Source: Chitinivorax sp. B
Lineage (GTDB): Bacteria; Pseudomonadota; Gammaproteobacteria; Burkholderiales; SCOH01
Reading direction: 5' to 3'
NCBI RefSeq assembly: GCF_005503445.1
Contig: NZ_SCOH01000017.1
Coordinates: 41,358 to 105,357, forward strand
Length of the DNA stretch: 64,000 bases
Part shown: in pieces, positions 3,613 through 57,743 of the stretch
How positions within the stretch are numbered: position 1 is the stretch's first letter
Layout of the letters: each line of letters starts with the position of its first letter
Made by a program: the position numbers and the translations under genes
The notes under the pieces: model-generated
What the model saw: the letters and a program-made list of their open reading frames with translations, nothing else
Databases searched by the model: none
Told to the model about the DNA's origin: nothing

Positions 3613-5825
<2,213 letters not shown>

Positions 5826-35148: not shown

Positions 35149-35520
35149 GTGAATTGGCACTTTATCTGGTGGCCATGTGATACATTTGCCATCATGCGTT
35201 ACCATCAATGGATCATGATCATCTGGCTGGCGATCAGCCTGCCTGTCAGCACTGCTGCTGCGGGGTCATTTGGCATGTGCCAGTCCATTGGTATGGCTCA
35301 GCCTGATAATGTGGAGGCTGAGCATGGCACGCACTGCCAAGATCAACAAGCCACCAAACTGACCACTTGCGATCAATGTAATTGGTGCCAACAGGTAGCC
35401 TCGGATGACTCGGTCAGTCCGTTACCTATCTTGGGTATGGTGGCGCCTTTGGCCTTTCTCTCAATACTATTTGCCCCGGATGGGGTGCTGTTTCGGCCTT
35501 TTCGTCCCCCTTCGTTCTGA
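35149..35520 (+). CDS. Small Cys-containing exported protein upstream of the multicopper oxidase
   Basis: A protein of 123 residues from GTG 35149, or 108 from ATG 35194. A hydrophobic signal (IMIIWLAISLPVSTAAAG) is followed by FGMCQS, HGTHC, CDQCNWCQQ and a C-terminal hydrophobic segment ending FRPFRPPSF. The Cys/His pairs and the RPP tail resemble small exported proteins often found beside copper genes; two other proteins in this window (37519 and 51447) share this layout. A role in binding or sensing copper is inferred. The longer start has a GCGGAG site, the shorter places the signal properly. Confidence 0.65.
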   Translation: MNWHFIWWPCDTFAIMRYHQWIMIIWLAISLPVSTAAAGSFGMCQSIGMAQPDNVEAEHGTHCQDQQATKLTTCDQCNWCQQVASDDSVSPLPILGMVAPLAFLSILFAPDGVLFRPFRPPSF

Positions 35521-35655
35521 TTGTAGTGGATTGGTACATCGTTGATGGCGATGTTGCCGTATCAGATTTGTGATGAATGAAGTGCTCCAATAAGCAGCTA
35601 CACTGAGTTTGGGCGGCTTGTTGATACGCATGATTGAACAGATTCAGGATGATTG

Positions 35656-37158
35656 ATGATGAAAAGACGTCGTTTTCTCACCTCGTTGGGTGGTTTGGCT
35701 ACCATGGGTTTTGTTGCGCCGTGGGCAAGGGCTGTGTCGGGTGACATGGCACATGGCATGCATGCAAGCATGTCTCAAGCTGCAACCGAATTGGCCGATA
35801 TCACGGCTTTACCCAAAGGCGCCTTGTTGGCAGATTTGCCACGGCTGGCCAATACAACCAAACAGGATGCTCTTTTCCGGGCTACCCTAGTTGCGGCACC
35901 GACCAAACATAAAGTGATGACAGGCACCGAAACCCAATGTTGGACCTATAACGGCAATCTGCCAGGTCCATTAATCGATGTGTTTGAGGGTGACACGGTC
36001 GAGATTTTGCTGGAAAACCGGTTACCGCAAGCAACTACCATTCATTGGCACGGCCTGCCAGTACCACCCGAGCATGACGGCAATCCGCAAGATGCAGTAC
36101 CACCTGGCGAGCAACGTTGGTATCGTTTTACCTTGCCCAAAGGCAGTGCCGGTACGTACTGGTATCATCCGCACCCACATGGCACCACGCCAGAACAAGT
36201 ATTCCGTGGCATGGCCGGGGTCTTCATTGTCCGTACCAAGGAGGATCCGCTGGCGGATATTCCGGAGCGGTTGTTGCTGGTATCTGATCTGAAGCTGGCC
36301 AAAGATGGCCAGATAGCGCCAAATGATACCAATGATGAGATGAACGGTCGTGAAGGGCAGTTTGTGTTGGTCAATGGACAGCACCAGCCGATATTGCGCT
36401 TCCACCAAGGTGGGCGAGAGCGTTGGCGTATCTGGAATGCCAGCAATGCTCGCTATTTACGCCTGACTTTGCCAGGGATGCGATTTGCGTTGGTCGGAAC
36501 GGATGGTGGGTTGCTGGAGCACCCCATACCTAACCTCACTGAATGGTTGGTGGCACCCGCTCAACGGGTGGAGCTGATTGTGGAGGTGGGTGAGCAGCCA
36601 GGTCTGATTGATCTGACGGCGGCGGTCTATGCGCGGGGTAAGATGGGGAGTGTTCAGCCAGACCAGCCCCAGCGTTTGCTGACGGTGGATTTTGGTGCGG
36701 TCAAAGCAACAACGCTGGCACCACTGCCAACGGTGTTGCGACGTATTGAGCCGCTGGGAAGGCATCGTGCCAAAAAGCGCGTGGTCTTTTCGGAGGAGAT
36801 GTCGATGGCTGACGGTCGCCACGATATGAAGTTTCTGCTGAATGGACGCCGCTACGATATGTCCCGGGTTGATCTGATCAGTCGCATCAATCAGATAGAA
36901 TTGTGGGAAATTGTCAACCAGGCGGACATGGATCATCCATTCCATATCCACGGCACACAGTTTCAGGTGGTGGAAAGTGTGTTTGAAGGAAAAACGACAC
37001 GGCCGGCTTATCGTGCTTGGTACGATACCGTCAACCTGCGGGCGGGTGAGATCGTACGTATCAAACTGGTACAGTCGTTCAAGGGGTTGCGTATGTTTCA
37101 TTGTCATATTCTGGAGCATGAAAATGCAGGCATGATGGCCCAATTGAAGGTGATTTGA
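35656..37158 (+). CDS. Multicopper oxidase (CopA/CueO-like), Tat-exported
   Basis: A 500-residue three-cupredoxin enzyme. The twin-arginine signal MMKRRRFLTSLGGLATMG is followed by a Met/His-rich start of the mature protein (GDMAHGMHASMSQ). The four copper motifs are intact: HWHG, WYHPHPHG, HPFHIHGTQF and HCHILEHENAGMM with the type 1 Cys. Such enzymes oxidise Cu(I) to less toxic Cu(II) in the periplasm. It lies between two small Cys-containing exported proteins and upstream of the methanobactin locus. ATG 35656 or 35659 may start it; both keep the Tat signal. Confidence 0.93.
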   Translation: MMKRRRFLTSLGGLATMGFVAPWARAVSGDMAHGMHASMSQAATELADITALPKGALLADLPRLANTTKQDALFRATLVAAPTKHKVMTGTETQCWTYNGNLPGPLIDVFEGDTVEILLENRLPQATTIHWHGLPVPPEHDGNPQDAVPPGEQRWYRFTLPKGSAGTYWYHPHPHGTTPEQVFRGMAGVFIVRTKEDPLADIPERLLLVSDLKLAKDGQIAPNDTNDEMNGREGQFVLVNGQHQPILRFHQGGRERWRIWNASNARYLRLTLPGMRFALVGTDGGLLEHPIPNLTEWLVAPAQRVELIVEVGEQPGLIDLTAAVYARGKMGSVQPDQPQRLLTVDFGAVKATTLAPLPTVLRRIEPLGRHRAKKRVVFSEEMSMADGRHDMKFLLNGRRYDMSRVDLISRINQIELWEIVNQADMDHPFHIHGTQFQVVESVFEGKTTRPAYRAWYDTVNLRAGEIVRIKLVQSFKGLRMFHCHILEHENAGMMAQLKVI

Positions 37159-37180
37159 TCAACCAGTCGATACGTCACAA

Positions 37181-37215
37181 AATGGCAGGTCCGCACTGCG
37201 GACCTGCCATTTTTG
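37181..37215 (+). terminator. Terminator after the multicopper oxidase gene
   Basis: A 14-bp perfect stem (AATGGCAGGTCCGC with GCGGACCTGCCATT, 37181-37194 and 37198-37211), a 3-base loop, preceded by A and followed by a T run. It lies 22 bases past the stop. Confidence 0.93.
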
Positions 37216-37518: not shown

Positions 37519-37914
37519 ATGCAGATCAATCACCGATTCCATCGTTTTATTTCCTGGCTGGCCATTCTGGCTGTGCTGATGGGAGCGTTGGTACCGACAA
37601 TTTCCTATGCAATGAAAACCCCATCCGCTGAATCGGGCTGGGTAGAAGTCTGCACCGCCAATGGCATGAAATGGATCAATACGGCTGGGGCGTTGGTTGA
37701 TAGCCCATCTTCGCTACCTAGTGATCATCACATCAAGCATTGTCCCTATTGTAATCTGCATACTGATCAGGCTGATTTGCCCCCTGCAGCCTCCCTGTCG
37801 CTACCTGTGATGCCTTTTACCTCACTGGTACCTGATCGTTTTCTCTCCGCGCATACCACTTTGCATGCCTGGGTTGCGGTACAACCCCGTGCCCCCCCTT
37901 TCCTGACTGTCTGA
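37519..37914 (+). CDS. DUF2946-like small exported protein
   Basis: A 131-residue protein with signal/membrane segment (FISWLAILAVLMGALVPTISYA), then WVEVCTANGMKWIN and HHIKHCPYCNLHTDQ, a His/Cys-rich site typical of DUF2946, and a C-terminal PRAPPFLTV. DUF2946 proteins commonly precede TonB receptors or copper genes; here the TonB receptor follows 124 bp downstream. Copper binding through HxxHCPYC is an inference. It could be the first gene of the methanobactin transcript. Confidence 0.78.
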   Translation: MQINHRFHRFISWLAILAVLMGALVPTISYAMKTPSAESGWVEVCTANGMKWINTAGALVDSPSSLPSDHHIKHCPYCNLHTDQADLPPAASLSLPVMPFTSLVPDRFLSAHTTLHAWVAVQPRAPPFLTV

Positions 37915-38038
37915 TTTCCCACGCAACTTGTTATTGTTGATTGCATGTTGGCCTGCGTGCTGCCGTGCGCCATTGCTTTTGATGTAACCGTCATCCGGTC
38001 ATCAAGGTGGTCTGCTGCCAGCATGCAATGCACTGTGT

Positions 38039-40132
38039 ATGAATGGATTGAAGATGCATTACCGTTTCTGCTGTCCCGATACAGGTTTGGCACGGGAAGC
38101 CGATGGCAGTCACCGTCGACAGATTGCTTGCCTGATCGGCATGGTAGTTGCGACCCAGGCTTGGGCCGCGTCTACTCAGCATCGTTCTGAAGAATCAGAA
38201 GCCATGGTGGTGACGGCCACGCGTACCCGTACACTGCTTTACACCACGCCAGCGGCAATCAGTCGACTGGACGAGGATGACTTGGCCACACGTCAGGCCC
38301 AGTCCATTGGTGACGTGTTGCAAGATATACCGGGTGTGGCTGTGGGCGGCGGTCCCCGCGTTGCGGGCCGCCTGCCATCTTTGCGTGGTTTTACGGGCAA
38401 GCAGATCACCATACTGGTCGATGGAGCCCGCATGAATGAGGCTGCAGGACTCACTACACCGGTGCTGATTGATCCTTGGTTGCTGGCCGATGCCGAAGTG
38501 TTGCGTGGGTCAGGTTCCGCGCTGTATGGCAGCGGTGGTCTGGGGGGTGTCATCTCATTGCGAACCATGACCGCACGCGAGTTACTAGGTAAAGGTCAAT
38601 CATGGGGGGGCGAAATACAGCAGCAATGGGATCAGGCTGATGCCAGTCAGGTGACGCGGGCAAGGGGCTATGGCTATCGCAACGGATTGGATCTGCTGGC
38701 TGGTATCAGTCGGCGTGATTGGGGTGAGATCCGTCAGGGTGGTGGGACCCGTTTGTCGCCAAATACCGGGCATGCGGGTCAAGGTGTGATCCGCACGGGC
38801 TATGAACTGATACCGGACGGGCATATTTCGATCAACCACCGGCGTTACCAAGAACAGTCAACCCGTCCCAATAATCCGCAAGCCGATATGGCGCTTGGTA
38901 ACCCGGGTTTAGTGCCAGTACAGCACAATCACATCGATCAGACCCAAACCGGCTTGGCTTGGGTGCAAAAAGATGCTCAGGGTGACCCGGTGATCACGGC
39001 ACAACTTTACCGCACTATGCTTGAAACCCGTGCTGATGCGAATCCTGAGCAGTTTTTACCTGCCAGCAACAGCCTTACCCAAACAGAAGGCGTCAATCTA
39101 CAATATGTATTGAAGCCGACACAGTGGCAGCCTCGGCTGAGTTTTGGCCTAGACGGGTTTCGTGATCGACAGGAGGCGGCGTTTGGCGGGCAGGACAATC
39201 CGGTCATTCCCAAGGGGGAGCAGGCCGTGATCGGGGCCTATGTTCAAGGTGCATGGCAGCCTGATTCGCGATGGTCGATGCTGACCGGCTTACGGTTGGA
39301 TCGATATCGCACAAAGACTGAAGCCGGCAGTTGGCTTCAACATCAACATGTCTCACCCAAAATGACCCTCTCATACCAGCTTGCGCCGCAATGGCAAGCC
39401 TGGGGCAGCCTGGCAGAGGCTTATCGTACCCCGTCTCTCAGCGAAACCCATATGAACCTGCGTTGTGACAACTGCTTGTTCAATTTTGCGCCCAACCTGG
39501 CCTTGAAACCGGAAATCGACCGTAGCCTGGAGCTGGGTATCAACCACTGGGGGAGAGATTGGTTGCAGGCGGGGGATCGGCTGATGCTGCGAGCCAGCAT
39601 GTTCCATTCCAGAACCCGGGACTTGATCAGCAATACCGTGGTAGATAGCTATAGCCGCCGCTTTCCGTTTGATGGAGAAGGACTGGTGTTCCAGTATCAG
39701 AATCAGACACGGACAGAGCGAACGGGTATCGAGGCAGCACTTTCCTGGCGTTGGGCGCCCTGGCAGGTTGATCTGGGCTACAGCCGCCTGCGGGTAAGAG
39801 ATCGTCAGACACGGGCACACCTGTTTGCACCGCCAGACAAATTGGTGGCGAATATCGGATGGCAGCAAGGCGAATGGAAAGTTCACTGGCGAGCACGTTG
39901 GGTTGCGGCGCAATCCTACGACAGCATTGAAGCACGGCGAACTGTTGGATACAGCACGCAGGATTTATGGTTGCAATGGACCCCAATCAAGCTGGATGGC
40001 TTGGCGCTGTCGCTGGGCGGTACCAACCTGGGAGACAAGCGCTACGTGGTGTACCAGACCGATAACCCTAGTGCACGGACCATTGAGGCGGGGCGAGCCT
40101 GGAAGTTGGCGGCAGGTTGGATTTTCCGGTGA
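38039..40132 (+). CDS. TonB-dependent outer-membrane receptor (candidate methanobactin/copper receptor)
   Basis: A 697-residue receptor. Signal segment (IACLIGMVVATQAWA), TonB box region (SEAMVVTATRTRTLL), plug domain (IGDVLQDIPGVAVGGG, LRGFTGKQITILVDGAR, SALYGSGGLGGVI) and a 22-strand barrel ending with aromatic-rich AWKLAAGWIFR. There is no FecA-type N-terminal signalling domain. It stops directly before mbnP (TGA then ATG), so it is in one operon with mbnP, mbnH and mbnABC. In known loci an MbnT receptor imports copper-methanobactin; that role is inferred here. The exact start (38039 or 38054) is uncertain. Confidence 0.9.
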   Translation: MNGLKMHYRFCCPDTGLAREADGSHRRQIACLIGMVVATQAWAASTQHRSEESEAMVVTATRTRTLLYTTPAAISRLDEDDLATRQAQSIGDVLQDIPGVAVGGGPRVAGRLPSLRGFTGKQITILVDGARMNEAAGLTTPVLIDPWLLADAEVLRGSGSALYGSGGLGGVISLRTMTARELLGKGQSWGGEIQQQWDQADASQVTRARGYGYRNGLDLLAGISRRDWGEIRQGGGTRLSPNTGHAGQGVIRTGYELIPDGHISINHRRYQEQSTRPNNPQADMALGNPGLVPVQHNHIDQTQTGLAWVQKDAQGDPVITAQLYRTMLETRADANPEQFLPASNSLTQTEGVNLQYVLKPTQWQPRLSFGLDGFRDRQEAAFGGQDNPVIPKGEQAVIGAYVQGAWQPDSRWSMLTGLRLDRYRTKTEAGSWLQHQHVSPKMTLSYQLAPQWQAWGSLAEAYRTPSLSETHMNLRCDNCLFNFAPNLALKPEIDRSLELGINHWGRDWLQAGDRLMLRASMFHSRTRDLISNTVVDSYSRRFPFDGEGLVFQYQNQTRTERTGIEAALSWRWAPWQVDLGYSRLRVRDRQTRAHLFAPPDKLVANIGWQQGEWKVHWRARWVAAQSYDSIEARRTVGYSTQDLWLQWTPIKLDGLALSLGGTNLGDKRYVVYQTDNPSARTIEAGRAWKLAAGWIFR

Positions 40133-40987
40133 ATGAACATGGCACAGAGAAAATGCTTGAATTTAGTAGGCTGCGTGATGTTGGGCTGGGGCATCAGTGG
40201 TACGGCTGACGCAGCCCGTACGCAGCTCATCACACTACAAGTTGAGCCACAACTGGCAGGTCAGCCAGTGATGTGTGGTGCCTCTTATCCATTGCAAGGT
40301 GCGGATGGTGTGACCGTGAGGTTTGCCGATCTGCGCCTGTTCGTGTCCGCCATCGAATTGGTGGATGTAGAGGGGAGGGCTGTGCCACTGAGATTGGAGC
40401 AGGATGGGCGCTGGCAATATCGTGATACCGTGTTGCTGGATTTTGAAGATGGTCAGGTGAGTTGTGCAAATGGATCGTCTGAACAGCATCGGGTAATCAC
40501 CGGCCGGATTCAACCCGGTCGCTATCGAGGATTGCGCTTTATGCTGGGTGTGCCGGCCAGATTCAATCACCAGGATGCCACGTTGGCACCCTCCCCGTTG
40601 AACCAGACCGCATTGTTCTGGAGCTGGCAAGGCGGCTACCGCTTCATGAAACTGGAACTGGACGTTTTGCAGAATGGGCAGGTCAGCGGCTTCCCAATTC
40701 ATCTGGGTAGTACGGGTTGCCAGTCGTCCAGTAATCACCAGCCGGCAACGCGTTGCCGGCAACCGAACAGGGTCCAGGTGGATTTGCCGGACTTTGACCT
40801 GGCTACCGACCGGGTCCGTATCGACCTGTCTACACTTATTGCGCACACTCGTTTGGCATCCCCAACGCCTAATACGGCACCAGGTTGCATGTCAGCACCA
40901 GATGATCCGGACTGCGACGGGGTGTTGTCCGCCTTGGGGTTGACGGGAGGGAATTCGCAACGAGTATTTGGCGTGGTGAAGCCGTGA
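40133..40987 (+). CDS. mbnP: MbnP-like metallo-mystery pair protein
   Basis: A 284-residue exported protein (signal CLNLVGCVMLGWGISGTADA) of the MbnP family. The beta-rich core has AGQPVMCGASYPLQGADGV and FADLRLFVSAIELVD, the aromatic signature LFWSWQGGYRFMKLEL, the four-Cys set (MCG, SCANG, GCQSS, TRCR) and HLGSTGC. In the methanotroph system MbnP binds copper, and a Trp is converted to kynurenine by its partner MbnH. It overlaps mbnH by 4 bp and begins immediately after the receptor stop. Confidence 0.9.
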   Translation: MNMAQRKCLNLVGCVMLGWGISGTADAARTQLITLQVEPQLAGQPVMCGASYPLQGADGVTVRFADLRLFVSAIELVDVEGRAVPLRLEQDGRWQYRDTVLLDFEDGQVSCANGSSEQHRVITGRIQPGRYRGLRFMLGVPARFNHQDATLAPSPLNQTALFWSWQGGYRFMKLELDVLQNGQVSGFPIHLGSTGCQSSSNHQPATRCRQPNRVQVDLPDFDLATDRVRIDLSTLIAHTRLASPTPNTAPGCMSAPDDPDCDGVLSALGLTGGNSQRVFGVVKP

Positions 40988-42162
40988 TGCGGTCTTCCTC
41001 TCGATTCATCGCGCTGGTGGCCTGTTTGGCCTTTTGTATGACGCAGGTGATGGCACAGGCAGGTTTGTCTGTGCCATCAACTTATCGCTGGCCACTGCCT
41101 GACTGGGCACCCAGGCCTGTGATACCAGCTGATAATCCGATGAGTGAGGCCAAAGTCGCGCTTGGTCGTGCACTGTTTTACGACAAGCGTCTGTCAGCCA
41201 ATCAAACCCAGGCCTGTGCTAGCTGCCATTTGCCTGCCCATGGATTTGGCGATGGCTTGGCATTGGCAGTTGGCAGTACTGGCGAAGCTGGCAAGCGCAA
41301 TGCCATGCCACTGGCCAATGTCGCCTACCTGCCAACACTGACTTGGGCCAATCCCAATGTCACCACGCTGGAACAGCAGATACTGACGCCATTGTTTGGT
41401 GAGCATCCGGTAGAAATGGGTATGTCGGGCAAGGAGCAGTTGCTGTTCGAGCGATTGAAGGCGGATATCGATTATCCACGGCTATTCCGGCAAGCATTTC
41501 CGGAATTGAAAGGTGATATCTCGTTGCGCACAATCACCCGTGCCATTGCAGCATTTGAGCGCACCTTGTTGTCATTTGATTCACCTTATGATCGTTACCG
41601 TTATGGCAAGCAAAATCAGGCGATCTCGACGTCTGCCAAGCGCGGTGAGCAATTGTTCTTTGGCGAACGGCTGGAGTGCTATCACTGTCATGGTGGCATG
41701 AATTTCACCGACAACCAGATTCACCGTATGCAGCCCTTGGGAGAGCGGGGATTTCACAACACCGGTTTGTACAACCAAGATGGCAAAGGGGCGTATCCCC
41801 CAGGGCATCAAGGCTTGCGCGAATTTACCCAGCAAGCTGCGGATGAAGGGAAGTTCCGTACGCCAAGTCTACGAAATGTCGCCGTCACGGCACCTTATAT
41901 GCATGACGGATCGATTCCTACCCTGAAGGAAGTGATTCGCCAGCACTATGCTGTCAACGGGCGTGCCGGTGGTGGAACCGGTGCCGCCAGCCCGTTGCGT
42001 AGCCAGTTCATTCAAGGCTTTCAGATAACCGAGTCAGAAATTGCCGACCTGATTGCTTTTTTGGAAAGCCTGACGGACCCGCGTTTTTTACGGCACGCCG
42101 CACATCAAGCGCCGGCCAATCGGCCGGATTCCGGTGTTCACCCTAAGCCGAAACGGAGGTAG
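40984..42162 (+). CDS. mbnH: MbnH-like di-haem cytochrome c peroxidase-family enzyme
   Basis: A 392-residue exported di-haem protein: signal IALVACLAFCMTQVMAQA, c-type haem motifs CASCH (78-82) and CYHCH (232-236), and peroxidase-family segments (VALGRALFYDKRLSANQT, RTPSLRNVAVTAPYMHDGSIPTLKEVI). MbnH of methanotrophs oxidises a Trp in MbnP. It overlaps mbnP, and the precursor ORF mbnA begins 66 bp after its stop. Ordinary cytochrome c peroxidases share the fold; the pairing with MbnP supports MbnH. Confidence 0.92.
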   Translation: MMRSSSRFIALVACLAFCMTQVMAQAGLSVPSTYRWPLPDWAPRPVIPADNPMSEAKVALGRALFYDKRLSANQTQACASCHLPAHGFGDGLALAVGSTGEAGKRNAMPLANVAYLPTLTWANPNVTTLEQQILTPLFGEHPVEMGMSGKEQLLFERLKADIDYPRLFRQAFPELKGDISLRTITRAIAAFERTLLSFDSPYDRYRYGKQNQAISTSAKRGEQLFFGERLECYHCHGGMNFTDNQIHRMQPLGERGFHNTGLYNQDGKGAYPPGHQGLREFTQQAADEGKFRTPSLRNVAVTAPYMHDGSIPTLKEVIRQHYAVNGRAGGGTGAASPLRSQFIQGFQITESEIADLIAFLESLTDPRFLRHAAHQAPANRPDSGVHPKPKRR

Positions 42163-42228
42163 TTCAACCATTCATGTCTCGTTTCAGGAAATCAGCTGTT
42201 TTATCAACTTTTCAACGAGGGGCACATC

Positions 42229-42318
42229 ATGAAAATCGTTATTGTTCGTAGACAGGAAATCACCGTACAAGGTCGCGTGGGCGCCCGTTGCGCCAGCGCT
42301 TGCCGCGTCAAGCAGTAA
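42229..42318 (+). CDS. mbnA: Methanobactin precursor peptide MbnA
   Basis: A 29-residue ORF, too short for routine calling. Ribosome site GAGGGG lies a few bases before the ATG. The leader is basic and hydrophobic (MKIVIVRR..., then VQGRVGA), and the core RCASACRVKQ has two cysteines in a Cys-x3-Cys pattern. Known precursors end their leaders with VIGRA-type sequence before the first core Cys, and Methylocystis cores start RCASTC; this one reads RCASAC. It is followed directly by mbnB and mbnC, whose products convert Cys plus the preceding residue into an oxazolone and thioamide that bind Cu(I). The expected bonds are Arg-Cys and Ala-Cys. The identification rests on pattern and position. Confidence 0.88.
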   Translation: MKIVIVRRQEITVQGRVGARCASACRVKQ

Positions 42319-42331
42319 TCTGTCGCATCGG

Positions 42332-42366
42332 CCGGCCTGCATATGGCATTAATGCAGGTCGGTTTT
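42332..42366 (+). terminator. Attenuator hairpin between mbnA and mbnB
   Basis: CCGGCCTGCAT at 42332-42342 pairs with ATGCAGGTCGG at 42352-42362 (11 bp, one G-U), loop of 9, then TTTT. It is 13 bases after the precursor stop and 38 before mbnB. A partial terminator here would give more precursor mRNA than enzyme mRNA, as is usual for peptide natural products. Confidence 0.75.
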
Positions 42367-42404
42367 CTGCCTTCTTACCTTAATCATGTGAGCTACGCCT
42401 TATC

Positions 42405-43208
42405 ATGCAGATCGGTTTTAACTTTACGCTGGGCGAAACCACCGCCATGGTGCAGCAATTGGTGCGGGAAGGGGCTATCGACTACGTCGAGCTACTGATC
42501 GACAACTTTTTGCATGTGCCACCAGAAGACATTGCCCGCGCGTTTGATGCACCTGTTGCATTCCACATCATGTTTTCGCGGTTTCTGGAGGCCGACGAGG
42601 CATTTCTGCATGATCTGGCCAGTCGTCTGCAGCCTTATATCCAAGTGCTCAGGCCTATGTATGTATCTGATCATATTGCATATTTCTCACATCAGGGCAG
42701 GGTGCTGTTTCACATCGGTGAAATTGAATATCTTACCGAATACGAGCATGTCCGATCACGGGTGATGCAATGGCAGGCAGCCTTGGGCTGTGTGGTGCAC
42801 TTTGAAAACTATCCGTCAATTGTTGATGGCAGTCACGATGCCCCGGCTTTTTTCGAGCGCCTGATGAACGACACTGACGCTGGTACCTTGTTCGACGTAT
42901 CGAATGCGATCTGCGCACAACGTAATGCCGGTCCGCCGATCAGCGACTGGGTTCGTGTGATGCGACATGCCCGCCATTTTCACGTATCGAGTTACAACAC
43001 GGCATTTGTCGACCAGCGTGTCACGGTGGATTCGCATGATGGACAACTGGCTGACGATACGCTGGATAGCCTGCGTCTGTATCGGCATTTGATGGACAAG
43101 CCCGGTGCGACACTCACCTATGAACGTGATGAAAACATCGAGTACGACAGTATTCTGCAGGATCTGATAACACTTCGCACATGTTATGCCGCATCGGACA
43201 AGGTTTGA
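42405..43208 (+). CDS. mbnB: Methanobactin biosynthesis protein MbnB (DUF692 family)
   Basis: A 267-residue TIM-barrel, iron-dependent oxygenase. The start MQIGFNFTLGET and VELLIDNFL are typical of MbnB. Candidate metal ligands are visible: His54 (FHIMFSR), His90 (SDHIAYF), Glu134 (HFENYP), Asp164 (FDVSNAI), His193 (HFHVSSYN), Asp209/His211 (DSHDG) and Glu240 (TYERDEN). With MbnC it forms oxazolone-thioamide groups on MbnA. Generic DUF692 proteins associate with other peptides, but the MbnC partner and the precursor make MbnB firm. No clear Shine-Dalgarno is seen before the ATG. Confidence 0.95.
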   Translation: MQIGFNFTLGETTAMVQQLVREGAIDYVELLIDNFLHVPPEDIARAFDAPVAFHIMFSRFLEADEAFLHDLASRLQPYIQVLRPMYVSDHIAYFSHQGRVLFHIGEIEYLTEYEHVRSRVMQWQAALGCVVHFENYPSIVDGSHDAPAFFERLMNDTDAGTLFDVSNAICAQRNAGPPISDWVRVMRHARHFHVSSYNTAFVDQRVTVDSHDGQLADDTLDSLRLYRHLMDKPGATLTYERDENIEYDSILQDLITLRTCYAASDKV

Positions 43209-43210
43209 AC

Positions 43211-43801
43211 ATGATCTACCCCAGTATCACTGCCTTACCTGATCGCGCCATCACTGACCGCGAACTGTTGGACTACCTGATTGATCCATCAGCCAGGACG
43301 ATGTTTCCAGTTGATAGTCGGGCTTTCGTGCGGGTCGATATCAGTTTGCGTCATTACTGGCACACGTTATTCGATGTCTGCCCGGAACTGCTCGATATTG
43401 CGGACCCGGAAGGAATGGAGATTTTTGAGCCATTTCTGGCTTGGGCTGCGACACATTCATTGAGTATGGGCTGGCATTACTACCTGTGGGTAGCCCGCTG
43501 GTTGGCACAATCGCCTTATGTCACACAACTGGACGGCACGCTCAATGAGCGCCTGATGGCAGCAGCTGCAGCTCGTTGGGCGGTACTGGATCGCAGCGCG
43601 AATGCTGGCATTGTCCTTGGGCGAACAGGGTCCGACAGTTGGATCGTTGCCTGGAAGCCGAATACCTTGACTGATGGACGTAGGGTGGAACGATTGGATG
43701 TCTGCGGGGCAGTGCCGGCACCGGTATTCGATTATGGTGTGTTTTTCGCCGCCACTGATGAATTGGATGAATTTCCGGGCTGGCAGCCTATTCCATGTTG
43801 A
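43211..43801 (+). CDS. mbnC: Methanobactin biosynthesis protein MbnC
   Basis: A 196-residue partner of MbnB. It starts MIYPSITALPDRAITDRELLDYLIDPSARTMFP-like, and contains VDISLRHYWHTLFDVCPELLDI and HSLSMGWHYYLWVARWLAQSPYV, typical of MbnC, which binds the precursor leader and core. The ATG at 43211 lies two bases after the mbnB stop with AAGG just ahead; an ATG at 43181 inside mbnB is possible. About 220 bp without a recognisable gene follow. Length and position fit the two-subunit MbnBC enzyme. Confidence 0.93.
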   Translation: MIYPSITALPDRAITDRELLDYLIDPSARTMFPVDSRAFVRVDISLRHYWHTLFDVCPELLDIADPEGMEIFEPFLAWAATHSLSMGWHYYLWVARWLAQSPYVTQLDGTLNERLMAAAAARWAVLDRSANAGIVLGRTGSDSWIVAWKPNTLTDGRRVERLDVCGAVPAPVFDYGVFFAATDELDEFPGWQPIPC

Positions 43802-49716: not shown

Positions 49717-51057
49717 ATGCGCATCAATCCATTCACACGTTTTGTGATTCTGCTGCCGACTTGCCTGTTGCTGGGCGTTACCTTGTTTGCCAGTGTCAGC
49801 TATCGTGAAACGCGCAATGCCATGATTGCTGAGTTCCAGGCTGCTTTGCGTGAAGAAATCACGGCATTGGAAACCATCTACCAACAGCAAGGACACAAGG
49901 CACTGATTGAGGTGGTAACCGCGCGTGCCAAAGCCAATGTCGGTGAGTCGCCCAATGAAACGGTAGCTGTCTATTTGCTGACTGATGCCAAAGGCAAGAA
50001 GTTGGCCGGTAACCTGGTTGCGTGGCCAGATACTGTACAAGCCCAGGACGAAAGCTCATTGCAGTTTGTCGATCCAATTACGGGTGATACGGTTGTTGCC
50101 GTGGTGTTTCTGCTTTATGCGGATCAACGCCTGTTGGTTGGTAGGCGCGCTTTGTTTGAACATGTAGGCCGCCACCTTTGGGAAAATTATGCTTTGCTGG
50201 TGACGGCTGTGTTGCTGGTATCGCTGATCAGCGGCTGGGCTTTTACCAGTGGGTTACGCCAACGATTGGGACGGATCAGTGCCACAGCCGAGCGGATTCG
50301 GCATGGTCACATGAATGAGCGTATTCCAGAGTCGCGTAGCGAGGACGAGATCGAACGTTTGGTACGCCAGCTCAATCGCATGCTGGATCAGGTCGAAAGC
50401 CTGATGCTTCATGCTCGTACTACATCCAGCGCCATTGCGCATGATCTGCGTCATCCAATCAGTCGACTGCGTAATGAGCTGGAACTGTTGGCAGACGAGG
50501 CCGGGGACACCCCCATGCGTGATCGGATCGAAGCACTGCAAAATAATATTGATCATATCCTGCGGGTATTTCAGGCAGTATTACGCTTGGGTCGCCTGGA
50601 GGCTGGTGCCTATACCCTACAAGTTGAAGAAACCGATCTGGCAGAGCTGGTCAGTGATGCGGTATCGCTCTACGAACCCATGGCTGAAGCACAGGGTAGG
50701 ATATTGCAGTTACAAGGTGTTGCGGGCGTGACGGCGATCGATCGCGAATTGGTATTTCAAGCTGTTGCCAATTTGATTGAAAATGCCCTGACATATGGTG
50801 AAGAAGGGATTGAGGTTAGTGTCGCACACCATACCATCAGCGTGCGGGATCACGGCCCCGGCATTCCGGAGGCAGAGCGTGAACGCGTATTGCAGCCCTT
50901 TGTACGCTTGGATGACAGTCGTAGTATCTCTGGTAGCGGGCTCGGGCTAAGCCTCGTTCGAGCGATTGTGGAATCACATGGGGGGGAATTGACCCTGGAG
51001 GATGCGCAACCAGGCTTGCGGGTGATACTGACCTTCCCAACTACTGTCAATAGCTGA
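49717..51057 (+). CDS. Sensor histidine kinase
   Basis: A 446-residue membrane kinase paired with the preceding regulator. Membrane segments at about residues 8-28 (FVILLPTCLLLGVTLFASV) and 158-176 (YALLVTAVLLVSLISGWAF) enclose a periplasmic sensor of about 125 residues without Cys/His clusters. HAMP follows, then HisKA with His242 (SSAIAHDLRHPISRLRNELE) and HATPase with N box (LIENALTYG), G1 (VRDHGPGIP) and G2 (GSGLGLSLVRAI). The sensed signal is unknown; no obvious metal-ligand clusters in the sensor. Confidence 0.93.
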   Translation: MRINPFTRFVILLPTCLLLGVTLFASVSYRETRNAMIAEFQAALREEITALETIYQQQGHKALIEVVTARAKANVGESPNETVAVYLLTDAKGKKLAGNLVAWPDTVQAQDESSLQFVDPITGDTVVAVVFLLYADQRLLVGRRALFEHVGRHLWENYALLVTAVLLVSLISGWAFTSGLRQRLGRISATAERIRHGHMNERIPESRSEDEIERLVRQLNRMLDQVESLMLHARTTSSAIAHDLRHPISRLRNELELLADEAGDTPMRDRIEALQNNIDHILRVFQAVLRLGRLEAGAYTLQVEETDLAELVSDAVSLYEPMAEAQGRILQLQGVAGVTAIDRELVFQAVANLIENALTYGEEGIEVSVAHHTISVRDHGPGIPEAERERVLQPFVRLDDSRSISGSGLGLSLVRAIVESHGGELTLEDAQPGLRVILTFPTTVNS

Positions 51058-51446
51058 TGGGGGTAGGTTGCTTACTCGGCGAAGTCGTTATATACACAAA
51101 GTATATGGACGTTCCCCGGTTATTTGTTGTTGAGCAGGACTGTGTGTGGTGACATGATAAGCCCATGGAAGGGTGGCTTGGCGGGTGTCCTTTGTCGATT
51201 TACGGTGCTTGGGATGCCTGAAATCGTACAGGGTCGATGTAAGCAGTTTGTCACTTTCGCGACTAAGAACCGATAACAAAGCCCAGCGAAGTGGTTCTGG
51301 TTAGGCGTGCAAACAAAGGCGGTACGAGCGTACGACGAGTTTGCACAACAACACCAGAAGGGTTTTGTTAGCGGCGCTAAGCAAAAAACATGCTGGGTTT
51401 TGTCACCATCCAGCTTGGAATCCCTCTATCCATCACGCACACTGAC
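51058..51446. other. Intergenic region holding repeat copy 2
   Basis: About 390 bp between the kinase gene and the small exported protein gene of the cus cluster. The inverted copy of the 119-bp element occupies 51263-51381; nothing else is recognised. The element lies only 65 bases before the next start and could carry or block a promoter. Confidence 0.55.
51263..51381 (-). repeat. 119-bp palindromic intergenic element, copy 2 (inverted)
   Basis: Same element as 34438-34556 but in opposite orientation: CCCAGCGAAGTGGTTCTGG near its left side is the reverse complement of the right arm of copy 1, and the right side carries CACCAGAAGGGTTTTGTTAGCG. It is more diverged at its left end (CTAAGAACCGATAACAAAG). 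The length is identical. Confidence 0.88.
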
Positions 51447-51797
51447 ATGTACACGATTGTTCGCTTTTTTCTGCTGGTCGTTTTGACTATTAGTCTGCCG
51501 TTTGCCGGCAGGGCAGATGCACGCGCGGTGACAGATGCATGTCCGATGTTATCGATGGGTGCACCAGTGCAGTTGGATGCCGGCCAGGCAAGTTGTTGCA
51601 ACGATCTGGCTACTGCGCAAAAAACTGGCCATCCTTGTAAGGTTGGACAGGATTGCAAAGCAGGTAGTGCCACCCAAGCCATTGAGCTGATGACTGGCTC
51701 GCCCGTTCTTGGTTCGACCCCGTTGGTTCAAACCCTCTCTCATCCTTTATCGTCGGCTGATCTGGCCGGTTGTTGGCGTCCTCCGCGTTCTCTCTGA
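51447..51797 (+). CDS. Small Cys-rich exported protein at the head of the cus cluster
   Basis: A 116-residue protein; the ATG at 51447 places a signal peptide at the N terminus (FFLLVVLTISLPFAGRADA). Mature part has DACPMLSMG, ASCCNDLATAQKTGHPCKVGQDCKAG and the C-terminal AGCWRPPRSL. The Cys-pair and WRPP tail recur in small proteins next to copper or other heavy-metal efflux genes. Metal binding in the periplasm is inferred. It precedes cusC by 86 bp in the same direction. Confidence 0.7.
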   Translation: MYTIVRFFLLVVLTISLPFAGRADARAVTDACPMLSMGAPVQLDAGQASCCNDLATAQKTGHPCKVGQDCKAGSATQAIELMTGSPVLGSTPLVQTLSHPLSSADLAGCWRPPRSL

Positions 51798-51883
51798 TCG
51801 TATCAAACCACTGATTCTTCGCCCAGGCGAAGGGTTCTGTCATGCGTGCTTGTCGCACGCATGGGTAACGATCGGAGTCATCC

Positions 51884-53116
51884 ATGTTTTCCCGTTCTAT
51901 ATGGCCAATTCTTTGCGGATTGGCTGGGCTCGCACACGCCGAGCCATTGACCTTCCAGGCTGCCCTTGGATTGGCTGAACAACAATCGCCGGCATTGGCA
52001 GCCCGATACGCCCGCATTCGGGCGATGCAGTCACAAGTGATCAGTGCGGATGCCTTACCTGATCCCAAGCTGATCGTGGGTATCGACAATCTTCCCATCT
52101 CCGGTGCCGATGCATGGCGGTTGAATCGCGATTTCATGACCATGCAGAAAATTGGGGTGATGCAAGAAGTCCCCAATGCGGACAAACGCCGGGCACGCGC
52201 CGCCATGGCAACTGCCGATGTTGCGCTGACTCTGGCCGAAAGCCGAGTTGAGCAGCAAAAGGTACGCATTGCCACGGCACGGGCGTGGCTGACGCGGTAC
52301 TACCTTGAACAACGTCAGGCCCTGTTTACCGAATTACGGCAAGAGAACACCTTGTTGACTGAGGCGGTCCATACGCAAATTGCAGCGGGTCGCGGCGGGA
52401 TCGCCGATGCAGTGGCGCCCCAACTAGAGGCCGCACAACTGGCGGATCAAGCGGAGCTGTTGCAGCGCGATGTCGCCAAGGCAACGGCCGAACTCCGCCG
52501 CTGGCTCGGTACTGCGGCTGATGAGTCGTTAGCGGGCACTCCACCCGTGCTGCCTATCGACCCCTTGCATTTTCGGCAACAGTTGCATGCTCACCCCGAT
52601 TTGCAGGTGTTCGAGCCGGCTCGCCAAAAAGCCTTGGCAGAAGTACGTGAAACGCGCGCCACCAAACAGTCCGATTGGGGTGTGGAATTCGCTTATCAGC
52701 GGCGGGGCCCGCAGTTCGGGGACATGATCTCGTTGCAGGTCAGCTTTGACTTACCTCTGTTCAGTAAGACACGTCAGGATCCGCGCATTGCAGCCAAAGC
52801 TCAGCAAGTCACCCAACTGGATGGCGAGCGGGAAGCCATGCTACGCAGTCATCGTACCGACCTGGACAATGATCTGGCTGACTATGCCAGCGTGAATCGT
52901 CAATTGGTGCGAGCCCAACAGACCTTTTTACCATTGGCCCAGCAAAAGGTCGACCTGCAACTCGCCAGCTATCGGGCTGGCAAGGCCGAGCTGAGCAATG
53001 TGCTGACGGCGCGGCGCGAGTTGACTGAACAGCGGATGAAGGTGATTGAGCTGATACTGCAACAGCAGCTGGTGGCCAGCAAACTCTATTTCAGCTATGG
53101 GGAGGGCGCACCATGA
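51884..53116 (+). CDS. cusC: TolC-family outer-membrane channel of a copper efflux system (CusC/CzcC type)
   Basis: A 410-residue outer-membrane efflux protein with signal peptide (SIWPILCGLAGLAHA), two coiled-coil repeats (LAEQQSPALAARYARIRAMQSQV, then MRSHRTDLDNDLADYASVNRQL-type) and the beta-barrel segments between. It forms the outer exit duct of the RND pump encoded by the next two genes. Overlaps cusB by 4 bp. Whether CusC or CzcC fits best depends on the metal; the partner CusB supports Cu/Ag. Confidence 0.88.
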   Translation: MFSRSIWPILCGLAGLAHAEPLTFQAALGLAEQQSPALAARYARIRAMQSQVISADALPDPKLIVGIDNLPISGADAWRLNRDFMTMQKIGVMQEVPNADKRRARAAMATADVALTLAESRVEQQKVRIATARAWLTRYYLEQRQALFTELRQENTLLTEAVHTQIAAGRGGIADAVAPQLEAAQLADQAELLQRDVAKATAELRRWLGTAADESLAGTPPVLPIDPLHFRQQLHAHPDLQVFEPARQKALAEVRETRATKQSDWGVEFAYQRRGPQFGDMISLQVSFDLPLFSKTRQDPRIAAKAQQVTQLDGEREAMLRSHRTDLDNDLADYASVNRQLVRAQQTFLPLAQQKVDLQLASYRAGKAELSNVLTARRELTEQRMKVIELILQQQLVASKLYFSYGEGAP

Positions 53117-54609
53117 ACAACAAGCTCATACAGATAGCCCTACTGATGACTGTGATCTGTGCCGCGGGCGGTACTGGTTACTGGTTGGCCCAAAGCCAAG
53201 CCAGAGATAGGGTGGGGGGAGGCAAGTCGCCGACCGAAACAGCAACACAAGGGCAAGATCGCCCAGTACGTTACTGGTATGACCCAATGGTGCCAAACCA
53301 GCATTTCGACAAACCGGGTAAATCCCCGTTCATGGATATGCAATTGGTGCCGAAATATGCCGACGAAGGCGGCGAGGCTGCCACCGTCAAGGTAGATGCC
53401 CGAATCATGCAGAACCTGGGTATACGGCTGGCCAAAGTGGAGCGTACCCAGCTGGCACCGTCGATCGATGTGGCAGCCAGCGTGGCCTTCAATGACCGGG
53501 ATGTGGCCATGGTGCAAGCGCGTAGTAACGGCTTTGTCGAACGCGTGTATGGGCGGGCTCCGGGTGATGTGGTCGTGGCTGGCGCCCCGTTGGCTGATGT
53601 GCTGATACCCGAATGGACTGCTGCACAAACTGAGTTCCTGGCGTTGGCACGCTATGGCGACAAGGCCTTGGTGGAGGCAGCCCGTCAGCGGCTGCGCTTG
53701 ACAGGGATGCCCGCTGGTCTGATCGCGCAAGTTGAACGTTCCGGACAGGTTCATGCGGTCACTACCCTGAGCACACCGATTGACGGGGTGATTCAAACGC
53801 TGGAAGTACGGGCGGGCATGACACTGAATGCCGGGATGACCCTGGCCAAAGTCAACGGGTTGTCTTCGGTTTGGGTAGAAGCTGCTGTACCGGAGATACT
53901 GGCGGGTCAGCTTCAGGTGGGTCAGGTCGCAGACGTGCAATTGACGGCCTACCCTGGCGAAAGGGTGCAAGGCAAGGTCATTGCAATCTTGCCGGAAGTC
54001 AATATTGATAACCGTACACTGCGAGTGCGGGTCGAATTGGCCAACCCAAAGACACGTTTCAAGCCAGGTATGTATGCCCAGTTACGCTTGGCTGCGGGCG
54101 CTGGCCAAGCGACGTTGCTGGTGCCCTCGGAAGCGGTGATCCGTACCGGTTTGCGCAATGTGGTGATGACCGCATTGGATGGTGGCCGTTTCCAACCGGT
54201 TGAGGTTGAGTTGGGACGCGAAATCGGTGGCAAGACCGAGGTGCTGCAAGGCTTGCAGGAAGGACAGCAAGTGGTGGCTTCAGGCCAATTCTTGATCGAT
54301 TCGGAAGCGAGCTTGAGTGGTGTCATGGCTCGTCTGAGCAAGGCGGACGATGAGAGTAGGTCAGTGCCAGTCGATCAGCCACGTCACCATGGTATCGGCC
54401 GGATCGAGGCCTTGTCGGACAAGGAAATCACGTTGTCCCATGAAGCGATTCCATCCGTAGGCTGGGGGGCCATGACCATGCCGTTCAAGCTGGTCAAGCC
54501 TGGCCTGGCACAGGGGCTCAAGGTTGGTGATCGGGTCAAGTTCGATTTCACAGCACAGGATGATCGCTTTGTCATTCAGCAATTCAGCCAACCGGGAGCG
54601 CAGCCATGA
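53113..54609 (+). CDS. cusB: CusB periplasmic adaptor fused to a CusF-like domain
   Basis: A 498-residue membrane fusion protein. After one N-terminal membrane anchor, residues about 55-80 ([19 protein letters not shown], then [13 protein letters not shown]) match the Met-based metal site of E. coli CusB. The adaptor core follows. The last about 75 residues ([47 protein letters not shown]) are a CusF-like domain with the Trp and Met residues that bind Cu(I)/Ag(I). The fusion replaces a separate CusF. It overlaps both neighbours by 4 bp. Confidence 0.93.
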
Positions 54610-57600
54610 TCGAAAAACTGATCCGCTGGTCGGTCGCCAACCGCTTCCTGGTATTGCTGGCAACCTTATTCGTAGCGGCTTGCGGTGTATGGGCCGTCAA
54701 AACCGCGCCAGTCGATGCGCTACCTGACCTTTCTGACGTACAGGTCATCATTCGCACCAGCTATCCCGGCCAGGCGCCGCAGTTGGTGGAGAACCAGGTT
54801 ACCTATCCGCTGGCTACCACCATGCTGTCGGTACCTGGCGCCAAGATCGTGCGTGGCTTTTCCTTTTTTGGTGATAGCTTCGTCTATGTGTTGTTCGACG
54901 ATGGGACGGATTTGTATTGGGCTCGTTCGCGTGTTTTGGAATACCTGAATCAGGTACAAGGACGGCTGCCCAGTACGGCCAAGGCATCACTCGGCCCAGA
55001 TGCCACCGGTGTTGGCTGGATTTACGAATACGCCTTGGTTGATCGCAGTGGCCAGCATGACCTAAGCCAGTTGCGCAGCTTGCAAGACTGGTTTTTGAAG
55101 TTTGAATTGAAGAGCCTGCTCAATGTCTCCGAGGTGGCCACGGTTGGCGGCATGGTGCGTCAGTATCAAGTTGTGCTGGATCCGCTGAAGCTGGTTGCCT
55201 ATCGCATTCCGCAAGGCAAGGTGATCGAGGCGATTCGCCGTGCCAATCAGGAGACTGGCGGTGCCGTGCTGGAATTGGCTGAGACGGAGTACATGGTACG
55301 CGCATCCGGTTATCTGAAGACACTGGATGACTTTCGTGCGATTCCGCTTGGGGTCAATCAGGCCGGTGTGTCGGTGACGCTGGGCGATGTGGCCACGGTG
55401 CAACTTGGACCGGAGATGCGCCGGGGCATTGCTGAGTTGAATGGGCAGGGTGAAACGGTGGGTGGCGTGGTGATCCTGCGAAGCGGCAAAAACGCACGCG
55501 AGACCATCGCCGCGGTCAAGGCAAAACTTCTGGAACTGAAGAAGAGCTTGCCACCCGGTATTGAAATCGTCACCACCTATGACCGTAGTCAACTGATCGA
55601 TCGTGCCATCGATAACCTGACCCATAAATTGATTGAGGAATTCATCGTTGTTGCCGTGGTGTGTGCCGTGTTTCTGTGGCACCTGCGTTCAGCACTGGTG
55701 GCCATCATCTCACTACCACTGGGTATCATGGCGGCCTTTGTGGTGATGCGCTATCAGGGGGTGAACGCCAACATCATGTCGTTGGGTGGCATAGCCATTG
55801 CCGTCGGCGCCATGGTCGATGCGGCAGTGGTGATGATCGAGAATGCCCACAAGCACGTGGAAGCCTGGAAGCATCAACACCCGGATCAGGCATTGACGGG
55901 GGAGGCTCACTGGCATGTGATGACCGAAGCGGCCGTTGAGGTGGGACCAGCGCTGTTCTTTTCGTTGATGATCATCACCCTCAGCTTTATCCCGGTCTTT
56001 ACGCTAGAGGCCCAGGAGGGGCGACTATTCGGGCCATTGGCATTTACCAAAACCTACGCCATGGCGGCGGCAGCTGGTTTAGCCGTAACCTTGATCCCGG
56101 TGCTGATGGGTTACTGGATTCGCGGCCACATTCCCGATGAGCAACGCAATCCACTCAACCGCGTACTGATTCGCCTGTATCGACCGGTACTGGATTGGGT
56201 ACTCCGTCGACCCAAAGCAACCGTCACCATCGCCATGTTGGCGCTTGTGACGACCGCTTGGCCAATTAGCCAGTTGGGCGGCGAATTCATGCCACCCCTG
56301 AATGAAGGTGACCTGCTGTATATGCCATCGGCCTTACCAGGCTTGTCTACGGCCAAGGCGGGTGAGTTGTTGCAGCAGACCGACCGGTTGATCAAAACTA
56401 TCCCAGAGGTGGCCAGTGTGTTCGGCAAGGCCGGCCGTGCCGAAACAGCTACCGATCCTGCACCGATGGAGATGTTCGAAACTACCATCCAGTTCAAGCC
56501 GCGTGAGCAGTGGCGACCCGGCATGACTCCTGAGAAGCTGGTCGACGAGTTGGATCGTGTGGTTAAGGTACCTGGCTTGTCGAATATCTGGGTACCGCCC
56601 ATTCGCAACCGGATCGATATGTTGGCCACCGGTATCAAGAGTCCGATCGGGGTCAAGGTCAGTGGTACCAATCTTACTGAGATCGACCACGTCAGCCGTG
56701 AGGTGGAACGGGTCGCCAAGACCGTCCCTGGCGTCAGCTCTGCCTTGGCGGAACGATTGACCGGGGGGCGCTATCTCGATATCGACATTGATCGCCTGGC
56801 CGCCGCGCGTTATGGGCTGAACATTGCCGACGTGCAATCGATCGTGGCGTCCAGCATTGGCGGCGAAAACATTGGCGAAACCGTATCAGGGCTGGCACGT
56901 TATCCGATCAATGTACGTTACCCACGCGAAATCCGTGATTCGCTCGAACGATTGCGGCAGTTGCCCATCCTCACCGAAATGGGGGCACAAATTACCTTGG
57001 GGACCGTGGCCCAGATCCGGGTAACGGAAGGCCCGCCCATGCTGAAGAGCGAAAATGCTCGACCTTCCGGCTGGGTGTATGTGGATGTCCGTGGTCGTGA
57101 CCTGTCCTCAACTGTGATGGACTTACGCCGCGCCGTGACCGAACAGGTGAAGCTGGTACCGGGAGTCAGTATTGCCTATTCAGGTCAGTTTGAGTTTCTG
57201 GAGCGGGCCAATGCCCGGCTCAAACTGGTGGTGCCTGCCACGTTGTTGATTATCTTTGTGTTGCTCTACCTGACGTTCCGGCGCTTCGATGAGGCGATAC
57301 TGATCATGGCAACATTACCCTTCGCGCTGGTTGGGGGTATCTGGTTTCTCTACCTGCAAAGTTACAACCTATCGGTTGCCACGGGTGTTGGTTTCATCGC
57401 CCTGGCGGGTGTCTCTGCCGAGTTTGGCGTGGTGATGTTGTTGTACCTGAAACAGGCTGTCGCAGAGCGTGAAGACAAAGGTCTGCAGTTGACGGTAGAT
57501 ATCCTTGATGAAGCTATCCGTGACGGGGCGGTATTGCGGGTTCGACCCAAGGCCATGACGGTAGCCGTCATTTTGGGCGGCCTGTTGCCAATTCTGTGGG

Positions 57601-57743
57601 GGAGTGGCACTGGGTCTGAAGTGATGAGTCGCATCGCCGCACCCATGGTGGGTGGCATGGTGACTGCGCCATTGCTATCGATGCTGGTGATTCCAGCAAT
57701 CTATCGATTGATGAGACAAGCAGAGGAGAAATCTTCACGTTGA
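54606..57743 (+). CDS. cusA: CusA-type heavy-metal RND efflux pump
   Basis: A 1045-residue inner-membrane proton antiporter of the HME-RND family. N-terminal [24 protein letters not shown], periplasmic [26 protein letters not shown], the membrane signature [26 protein letters not shown] with charged residues for proton relay, [17 protein letters not shown], and C-terminal [39 protein letters not shown]. It pumps Cu(I) or Ag(I) from periplasm or cytosol to the CusC channel. A terminator follows 46 bases after the stop. Confidence 0.95.

Follow-up and report, generated by a model that had tools for sequence, protein, structure and literature searches.

How might a methanobactin operon be switched by copper when no MbnI/MbnR pair lies beside it? 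We addressed this question for a locus of Chitinivorax sp. B, on a stretch of 64,000 nucleotides from contig NZ_SCOH01000017.1 (positions 41,358 to 105,357, forward strand; assembly GCF_005503445.1), which we call the window and whose own numbering is used throughout. A first-pass annotation had described six genes there, from a TonB-dependent receptor (TBDT) to mbnC, as a compact methanobactin locus. All six lie on the + strand, closely packed, where that annotation had placed them, but the unit is larger than it proposed: a DUF2946 gene of the CruR type at 37519-37914, which it did not mention, stands ahead of the receptor and ends 124 bases before the six genes begin. We conclude, at a probability of a little over three in four, that the locus is a complete core methanobactin operon headed by a CruR leader, and that its predicted copper-scavenging peptide would be made only when copper is scarce. 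The gene identities and their order, an intact set of active-site residues and a leader of the form CxxC-45-RAPP can be read directly from the DNA, and the leader is the less expected part of the locus.

The window carries the genes of a core methanobactin operon

By NCBIfam models scored against their curated cut-offs (the TIGR families in Table 1), and by Pfam domains for the receptor, the TonB receptor, mbnP, mbnH, mbnA, mbnB and mbnC make up the full core methanobactin gene set. MbnA, MbnB and MbnC all score above their cut-offs, and the methanobactin reading of the first-pass annotation stands. The mbn genes are open over the full length of the family profiles. From the TBDT to mbnH they abut or overlap; a gap of 66 bases separates mbnH from mbnA, and one of 2 bases separates mbnB from mbnC. 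mbnB lies directly 3' of mbnA and mbnC directly after mbnB, which is the arrangement of a methanobactin operon. Every such operon is reported to have a TBDT and/or a MATE transporter (PMC3621798), and at this locus the TBDT takes that place.

Table 1. Features of the CruR-methanobactin unit in the window, with the scores (score versus cut-off) or signals that identify them
Feature	Positions	Strand	Basis
Intrinsic-terminator-like hairpin	37179..37213	+	16-pair stem, then T-rich tail
cruR-type leader gene (DUF2946)	37519..37914	+	PF11162, 78 bits vs 23.7
C>G bubble, candidate Rho-utilisation region, cruR 3' end	37708..37942	+	C minus G up to 24.4 points
TBDT (MbnT-like by linkage)	38039..40132	+	PF00593 and PF07715
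MbnP copper-binding protein	40133..40987	+	TIGR04052, 265 vs 140; PF20243
MbnH di-haem enzyme	40984..42162	+	TIGR04039, 475 vs 363
mbnA, methanobactin precursor	42229..42318	+	TIGR04071, 38.0 vs 24; PF25751 (Pfam), 49.5 vs 27
mbnA-mbnB intergenic hairpin	42319..42404	+	13-pair stem, then UUUU
MbnB, multinuclear iron oxidase	42405..43208	+	TIGR04159, 418 vs 325
MbnC, leader-binding partner of MbnB	43211..43801	+	TIGR04160, 246 vs 185

The precursor MbnA has 29 residues (MKIVIVRRQEITVQGRVGARCASACRVKQ), with cysteines at positions 21 and 25 and a CAS core motif at 21-23. It shows both the Lys/Arg-rich leader and the C(G/A/S)(S/T) core motif of the published definition, and the same source gives the core of Methylocystis methanobactin as RCASTCAA (PMC3621798). 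The core predicted here is RCASACRVKQ; removal of the leader, and any change at the N terminus, we infer. The mbnA open reading frame (ORF) is kept in place in two relatives, C. tropicus (locus L018) and Rugamonas (locus L004), where 25 and 18 of the 29 residues, respectively, are the same.

In searches of Protein Data Bank (PDB) sequences, MbnB aligned without gaps over residues 1-261 to MbnB of Rugamonas rubra (7fc0; E 4.9e-119), and MbnC matched chain F of the same entry (7fc0_F; E 5.7e-75), which is the R. rubra complex (PMC8888699). Alignment to 7fc0 and to the Vibrio enzyme 7dz9 places ten of ten described residues in the window protein (H54, H90, E134, D164, N167, H193, D209, H211, E240 and D242). 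They comprise the eight ligands of the tri-iron site, His211 and Asp242 as general base, as described for Vibrio MbnB 7dz9 (PMC8888699). The same work reconstituted and crystallised the R. rubra enzymes, found MbnA to be modified at Cys21 or Cys25 with measured shifts of -2 and -4 Da, and reported that the modified precursor binds Cu2+. MbnP matched 7l6g (E 2.1e-39), whose deposition title calls it a metallo-mystery pair protein, and MbnH matched the di-heme enzyme 6e1c (E 8.4e-104).

Among the checks that the first-pass annotation had proposed for its reading, those on sequence, family models for the Mbn proteins and a phylogeny of the DUF692 protein, came out in its favor. For 43211-43801, MbnC homology follows from the TIGR04160 score and the 7fc0_F match. 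For the phylogeny, a tree was built from 19 of 120 listed MbnB homologues together with the proteins of the window, L004 and L006, without the outgroup loci L010, L014 and L015, for which BLASTP gave no hit. It separated the 22 Mbn rows from five generic DUF692 rows with 100/100 support, the window MbnB falling in the methanobactin clade. Its nearest neighbor is C. tropicus (100/98), then Rugamonas with two further proteins (100/98); Chitinimonas lacunae forms the next branch outward (95/97).

The host had been described as a flagellated, apparently non-methanotrophic betaproteobacterium. Chitinivorax is a genus of Betaproteobacteria, and flagellin, FliD and FliK genes lie in the window. The source genome (5.66 Mb, 100% complete) gave no match to PF02461, the ammonia/methane monooxygenase family, an absence that is weakly supported, as 14 control genomes were also unmatched.

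A predicted CruR leader stands first in the unit

From its motifs and family score, we predict that 37519-37914 encodes a copper-responsive arrest-peptide leader of the CruR family. The encoded protein carries CPYC, then 45 residues, then RAPP, 4 residues short of the C terminus. No other ORF in the window has the CxxC-45-RAPP pattern, and 60 first-order Markov simulations of the window yielded no ORF with a spacing of 43-47 and two with a spacing of 30-60. The spacing is exactly 45 in C. tropicus and in Rugamonas as well. In Bordetella pertussis, copper at the nascent CxxC motif of CruR relieves an arrest at the C-terminal RAPP, and the relieved arrest leads to Rho termination ahead of the TonB receptor gene; the distance between the motifs is 45 in Bordetella and is kept to within one or two residues in more than 2000 homologues (PMC9426467). 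Dependence of the CruR arrest on RAPP has been shown in vitro (PMC12992588). The setting of the window gene is that of a CruR leader, i.e., a first gene with a hairpin before it and a long gap behind it, followed by the TBDT and mbn genes.

The genome has two other DUF2946 genes that encode CxxC and RAPP motifs, on contigs C38 and C9 (loci L081 and L082). One precedes a TBDT-PepSY_TM pair, an arrangement also known from Bordetella, and the other a PCuAC-like chaperone (both by eye). The spacing to RAPP is 39 in one of them, with RGPP at 44, and 48 in the other. The three CruR-type genes likely constitute a CruR copper-starvation regulon.

The same gene order recurs in a second genus

To place the locus, we compared five mbn loci. 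Three of them have the order CruR-TBDT-P-H-A-B-C: the window, where 124 bases separate cruR from the receptor gene, C. tropicus, where the gap is 303 bases, and Rugamonas, where it is 191. The TBDT lies 5' of mbnP and mbnH in all five. Gallionella has TBDT-P-H-A-B-C with a MATE-like ORF after mbnC (by eye), and in Cupriavidus the TBDT-P-H genes are on the strand opposite to mbnABC; mbnA was recognised by pattern in these two.

The locus is rare. MbnC scored above its cut-off in 1 of 369 class, 2 of 399 order, and 1 of 398 phylum genomes, samples that each count the window genome; the only genomes concerned are that one and the C. tropicus genome (G003), in which MbnB is also above cut-off (434 bits). 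Matches below the MbnC cut-off occurred in four further order-sample and five phylum-sample genomes. MbnH is more widespread (19 of 399 order-sample genomes, 17 besides the two Chitinivorax). At six of these 17 other loci a CruR-like ORF lies 5' of MbnPH, with a spacing of 43-46 and with RAPP in three and RGPP in three, and none of the 17 gave a match to MbnA, MbnB, or MbnC (TBLASTN, E 1e-4). Several of the 17 loci are short at contig ends, L068 and L072 ending before any leader could show, and MbnP was not found in L068, L074, and L075. A loose match at L070 (RSGP, spacing 36, wrong strand) was taken as chance. By gene order, the predicted CruR-MbnPH unit is a recurrent copper module, because CruR-like ORFs precede MbnPH at those six loci without mbnABC. 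To this module mbnABC appears to have been joined in the Chitinivorax-Rugamonas clade, presumably in that direction.

As for spread by plasmids, MbnC matched only plasmids of Methylocystis and Methylosinus (five records), and we rejected plasmid-borne spread. Two observations from the same searches stand apart. At locus L080 of genome G392 (3309-5818), two adjacent DUF692-like proteins (by eye) are followed by a distant MbnC-like protein that scores 79.5 bits, below cut-off; no precursor was identified there, and the locus is possibly an undescribed cluster for a ribosomally synthesised and post-translationally modified peptide. An MbnB cluster of 89 member sequences (P0071) bears the name of Metapseudomonas otitidis, in which methanobactin genes may be frequent.

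A model for copper-dependent expression

We infer the regulation and the transport from gene linkage and from the R. rubra and Bordetella systems. At low copper, ribosomes would stall at the RAPP of CruR, as in Bordetella, covering the C-rich 3' end of cruR and keeping Rho off, and transcription would proceed into the receptor gene, mbnPH and mbnABC. Copper on the nascent CxxC motif would free the stall, and Rho would then stop transcription in the gap at 37915-38038. By analogy with the R. rubra enzyme, MbnBC would convert Cys21 and Cys25 of MbnA by oxidation into oxazolone-thioamide groups, and removal of the leader would leave a copper ligand with the predicted core. Calculated neutral monoisotopic masses are 3254.81 for the unmodified whole precursor and 3246.75 once both sites are modified; for the core RCASACRVKQ they are 1120.56 and 1112.50. 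The modified peptide would exit the cell by a route with no gene at the locus, bind copper, and return through the adjacent receptor, which its linkage predicts to be an importer of copper-loaded methanobactin. MbnH and MbnP, also by linkage, would handle periplasmic copper, presumably with the tryptophan-to-kynurenine step described in the literature. The organism would thus both make and re-import the peptide. That the nascent CruR copper sensor, via Rho, decides whether the whole methanobactin pathway is built is a proposal on which we stand evenly poised.

The nucleotide signals fit this scheme in part. A C>G bubble at the 3' end of cruR reaches 24.4 points in 78-base windows; none of the other six bubbles listed for the + strand exceeds 20. 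This comparison is of the + strand only, because most window genes lie on it and the - strand is mainly antisense; the - strand gives many more bubbles, many above 20 points. The 3' end of Rugamonas cruR has a bubble as well (5115-5499; 28.2 points), one of nine listed at that locus. Upstream, the hairpin at 37179-37213 lies between the multicopper oxidase gene and cruR and delimits the unit, although the window is not enriched in terminator-like sites overall (8, against 6.8 in shuffles).

A second hairpin lies between mbnA and mbnB (z -1.84). C. tropicus and Rugamonas also have a hairpin between these two genes, with z values of -0.51 (not unusual) and -4.02, respectively, and the three are unlike in sequence. 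The window hairpin is possibly a partial attenuator or a stabiliser of the mRNA, and it may lead to more precursor than enzyme being made.

Weighing the alternatives

Several observations weigh against the conclusion that CruR heads a single copper-repressed methanobactin operon. The Gallionella and Cupriavidus mbn loci (two of the five) have no CruR. At the 3' end of C. tropicus cruR, the C excess reaches at most 18 points, over a stretch that the bubble rule is too strict to list, and we have therefore slightly lowered our confidence. The candidate rut (Rho-utilisation) stretch of the window, 37780-37914, is no less structured than shuffles (z -1.13), and 37915-38050 is structured (z -2.06), unlike the unstructured region described in Bordetella. 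The promoter scan found no + strand site 5' of cruR, and a second promoter inside the operon is conceivable. As for transport, the nearest PDB structures of the receptor are heme receptors, and its score falls just below the TonB-hemin model (307 versus 317), so a heme receptor is compatible with the sequence. The locus lacks a MATE exporter, the MATE genes of this genome being on other contigs. Of the other accounts, the one we take most seriously, while thinking it unlikely, accepts the mbn genes as real and has CruR govern only the receptor, perhaps with mbnPH, leaving mbnABC to a promoter or regulator of its own. The 66 bases between mbnH and mbnA could hold such a promoter, and a promoter-like site does occur within mbnH (41506-41534). 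The opposite strands of mbnABC and TBDT-P-H in Cupriavidus indicate that the two parts are separable, and six MbnPH loci have a CruR-like ORF and no mbnABC. Against this, the promoter scan lists no sigma-70-like site in 42163-42228 (nor does it list one for cruR), the TBDT, mbnP and mbnH genes abut or overlap, and the whole order with CruR in first place recurs in C. tropicus and Rugamonas.

The remaining alternatives are improbable to differing degrees. The locus could be a degenerate or silent acquisition in which the enzyme genes persist while methanobactin is neither exported nor used. The missing exporter, the rarity of the locus (in the order sample, MbnC above cut-off in the two Chitinivorax only) and its surroundings, which differ between the two Chitinivorax species (ORFs, by eye), would suit such a history, but the ORFs are open over their family profiles and the MbnB active-site residues are kept. 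Moreover, between Chitinivorax sp. B and C. tropicus the rate of replacing substitutions (dN, 0.21-0.36) is far below that of silent ones (dS, at least 1.8, near or past saturation between the two species) for mbnT, mbnP, mbnH and mbnB. In mbnA, six codon changes are silent and four replacing (versus Rugamonas, six and 11). This codon comparison gives no support to a decayed locus, and we consider silent persistence improbable. About as improbable, or slightly more so, is a leader that acts in the manner of CutF, with copper strengthening the stall and turning the operon on. CutF, which has likewise been assigned to DUF2946, is reported to work in the opposite sense (PMC9973294), and the gap after cruR is structured here; RAPP, the spacing of 45, the downstream receptor and the 124-base gap are nevertheless marks of CruR, and a cell with plenty of copper would have little reason to induce an importer for it. 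Finally, the DUF692 protein belongs to the same superfamily as bufferin- and oxazolin-type copper-protection enzymes and has weak matches to the NCBIfam BufB and HvfB models. We reject such an enzyme, or a generic DUF692 protein, on family scores and the tree: the protein scores 73 bits with the BufB model, far short of the 310 required, and exceeds the MbnB cut-off, the tree sets the protein apart from generic relatives, and MbnA and MbnC are both present, the precursor having no signal peptide (by eye).

Relation to known systems

A near relative that has been characterised is the Rugamonas rubra MbnABC system (Group III, PDB 7fc0), whose precursor likewise has cysteines at 21 and 25. The locus of Rugamonas sp. 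CCM 8940 (L004) has the gene order of the window, CruR included, and differs in its core (RCASSCGAKS versus RCASACRVKQ). Methylosinus and Methylocystis operons (Groups I and II) share the mbnA-mbnB-mbnC core, the receptor and MbnP/MbnH, and RCASTCAA of Methylocystis resembles RCASAC here. Unlike those operons, the ORFs adjoining the window locus include no MbnI/MbnR, MbnN, MbnS, MbnF, or MbnM, and a CruR leader stands where Methylosinus and Methylocystis have the FecIR-type pair. The CruR-bfrG(crtA)-bp2921 operon of Bordetella pertussis shares the DUF2946 leader, CxxC-45-RAPP, a TonB receptor in second place, a C>G bubble and a long gap after the leader (162 bases there, 124 in the window). 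It is a three-gene operon for copper acquisition without chalkophore synthesis, to which the window adds mbnPH and mbnABC. CruR homologues before MbnPH-like genes (PMC9426467) share with the window a CruR 5' of MbnP and MbnH.

Although the first-pass annotation implied novelty, methanobactin operons in non-methanotrophs, beta-proteobacteria included, have been in print since 2013 (PMC3621798), and the R. rubra relative has been characterised (PMC8888699). A methanobactin operon outside methanotrophs is thus already known; what seems new here is the CruR leader on an mbnABC operon. In the available part of PMC9426467, the only listed match that contains both DUF2946 and methanobactin, the section on gene neighbors mentions MbnPH-like genes only and no mbnABC behind CruR. 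The available parts of a 2025 enzyme survey (PMC12452194) mention neither CruR nor DUF2946, and in those of two papers from 2026 that deal with the CruR operon of Bordetella (PMC12914433 and PMC13038864) methanobactin comes up in passing or in references only. We found no CruR before mbnABC in the open-licence literature, a search that does not cover supplementary tables, so that it may still be published; nor did that literature contain Chitinivorax and methanobactin together.

Neighboring copper genes and possible copper demand

Other copper genes are spread across 35-58 kb of the window, with further genes interspersed. Upstream of the unit, 35149-37158 holds a multicopper oxidase gene and, ahead of it, a small DUF2946-like ORF. 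This ORF scores 17.2 bits, short of the 23.7 cut-off; it ends in FRPPSF, has a CNWC motif and is similar to CutF/CopL leaders. The window may have two nascent-chain copper sensors in succession that work in opposite senses. Directly after mbnC come an HbpS-like gene and then a BCCT transporter gene. Further downstream, 49717-57743 holds a histidine kinase, an outer-membrane efflux protein, a CusB-CusF fusion and an RND pump, a Cus-type copper efflux set.

Lytic polysaccharide monooxygenases (LPMOs) are copper enzymes. Two LPMO_10 genes (PF03067) are present in each Chitinivorax genome and two in Rugamonas, compared with 0 of 3 other family members and none in Gallionella or Cupriavidus; the base rate is 26 of 399 order-sample genomes, the two Chitinivorax included. 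The link between LPMOs and methanobactin is only suggestive, because the lineages are few and related.

A CruR leader at the same place in two genera offers a concrete copper switch that would be cheap to test. If the proposed control is true, CruR would provide the copper switch so far missing for methanobactin operons without MbnI/MbnR, and control by translation arrest would be tied to the synthesis of a natural product. In these LPMO-carrying bacteria, captured copper could feed secreted, polysaccharide-cutting LPMOs and not methane monooxygenase. For the study of chalkophores, the locus draws attention to a lineage of non-methanotrophs in which LPMO_10 is a possible copper client.

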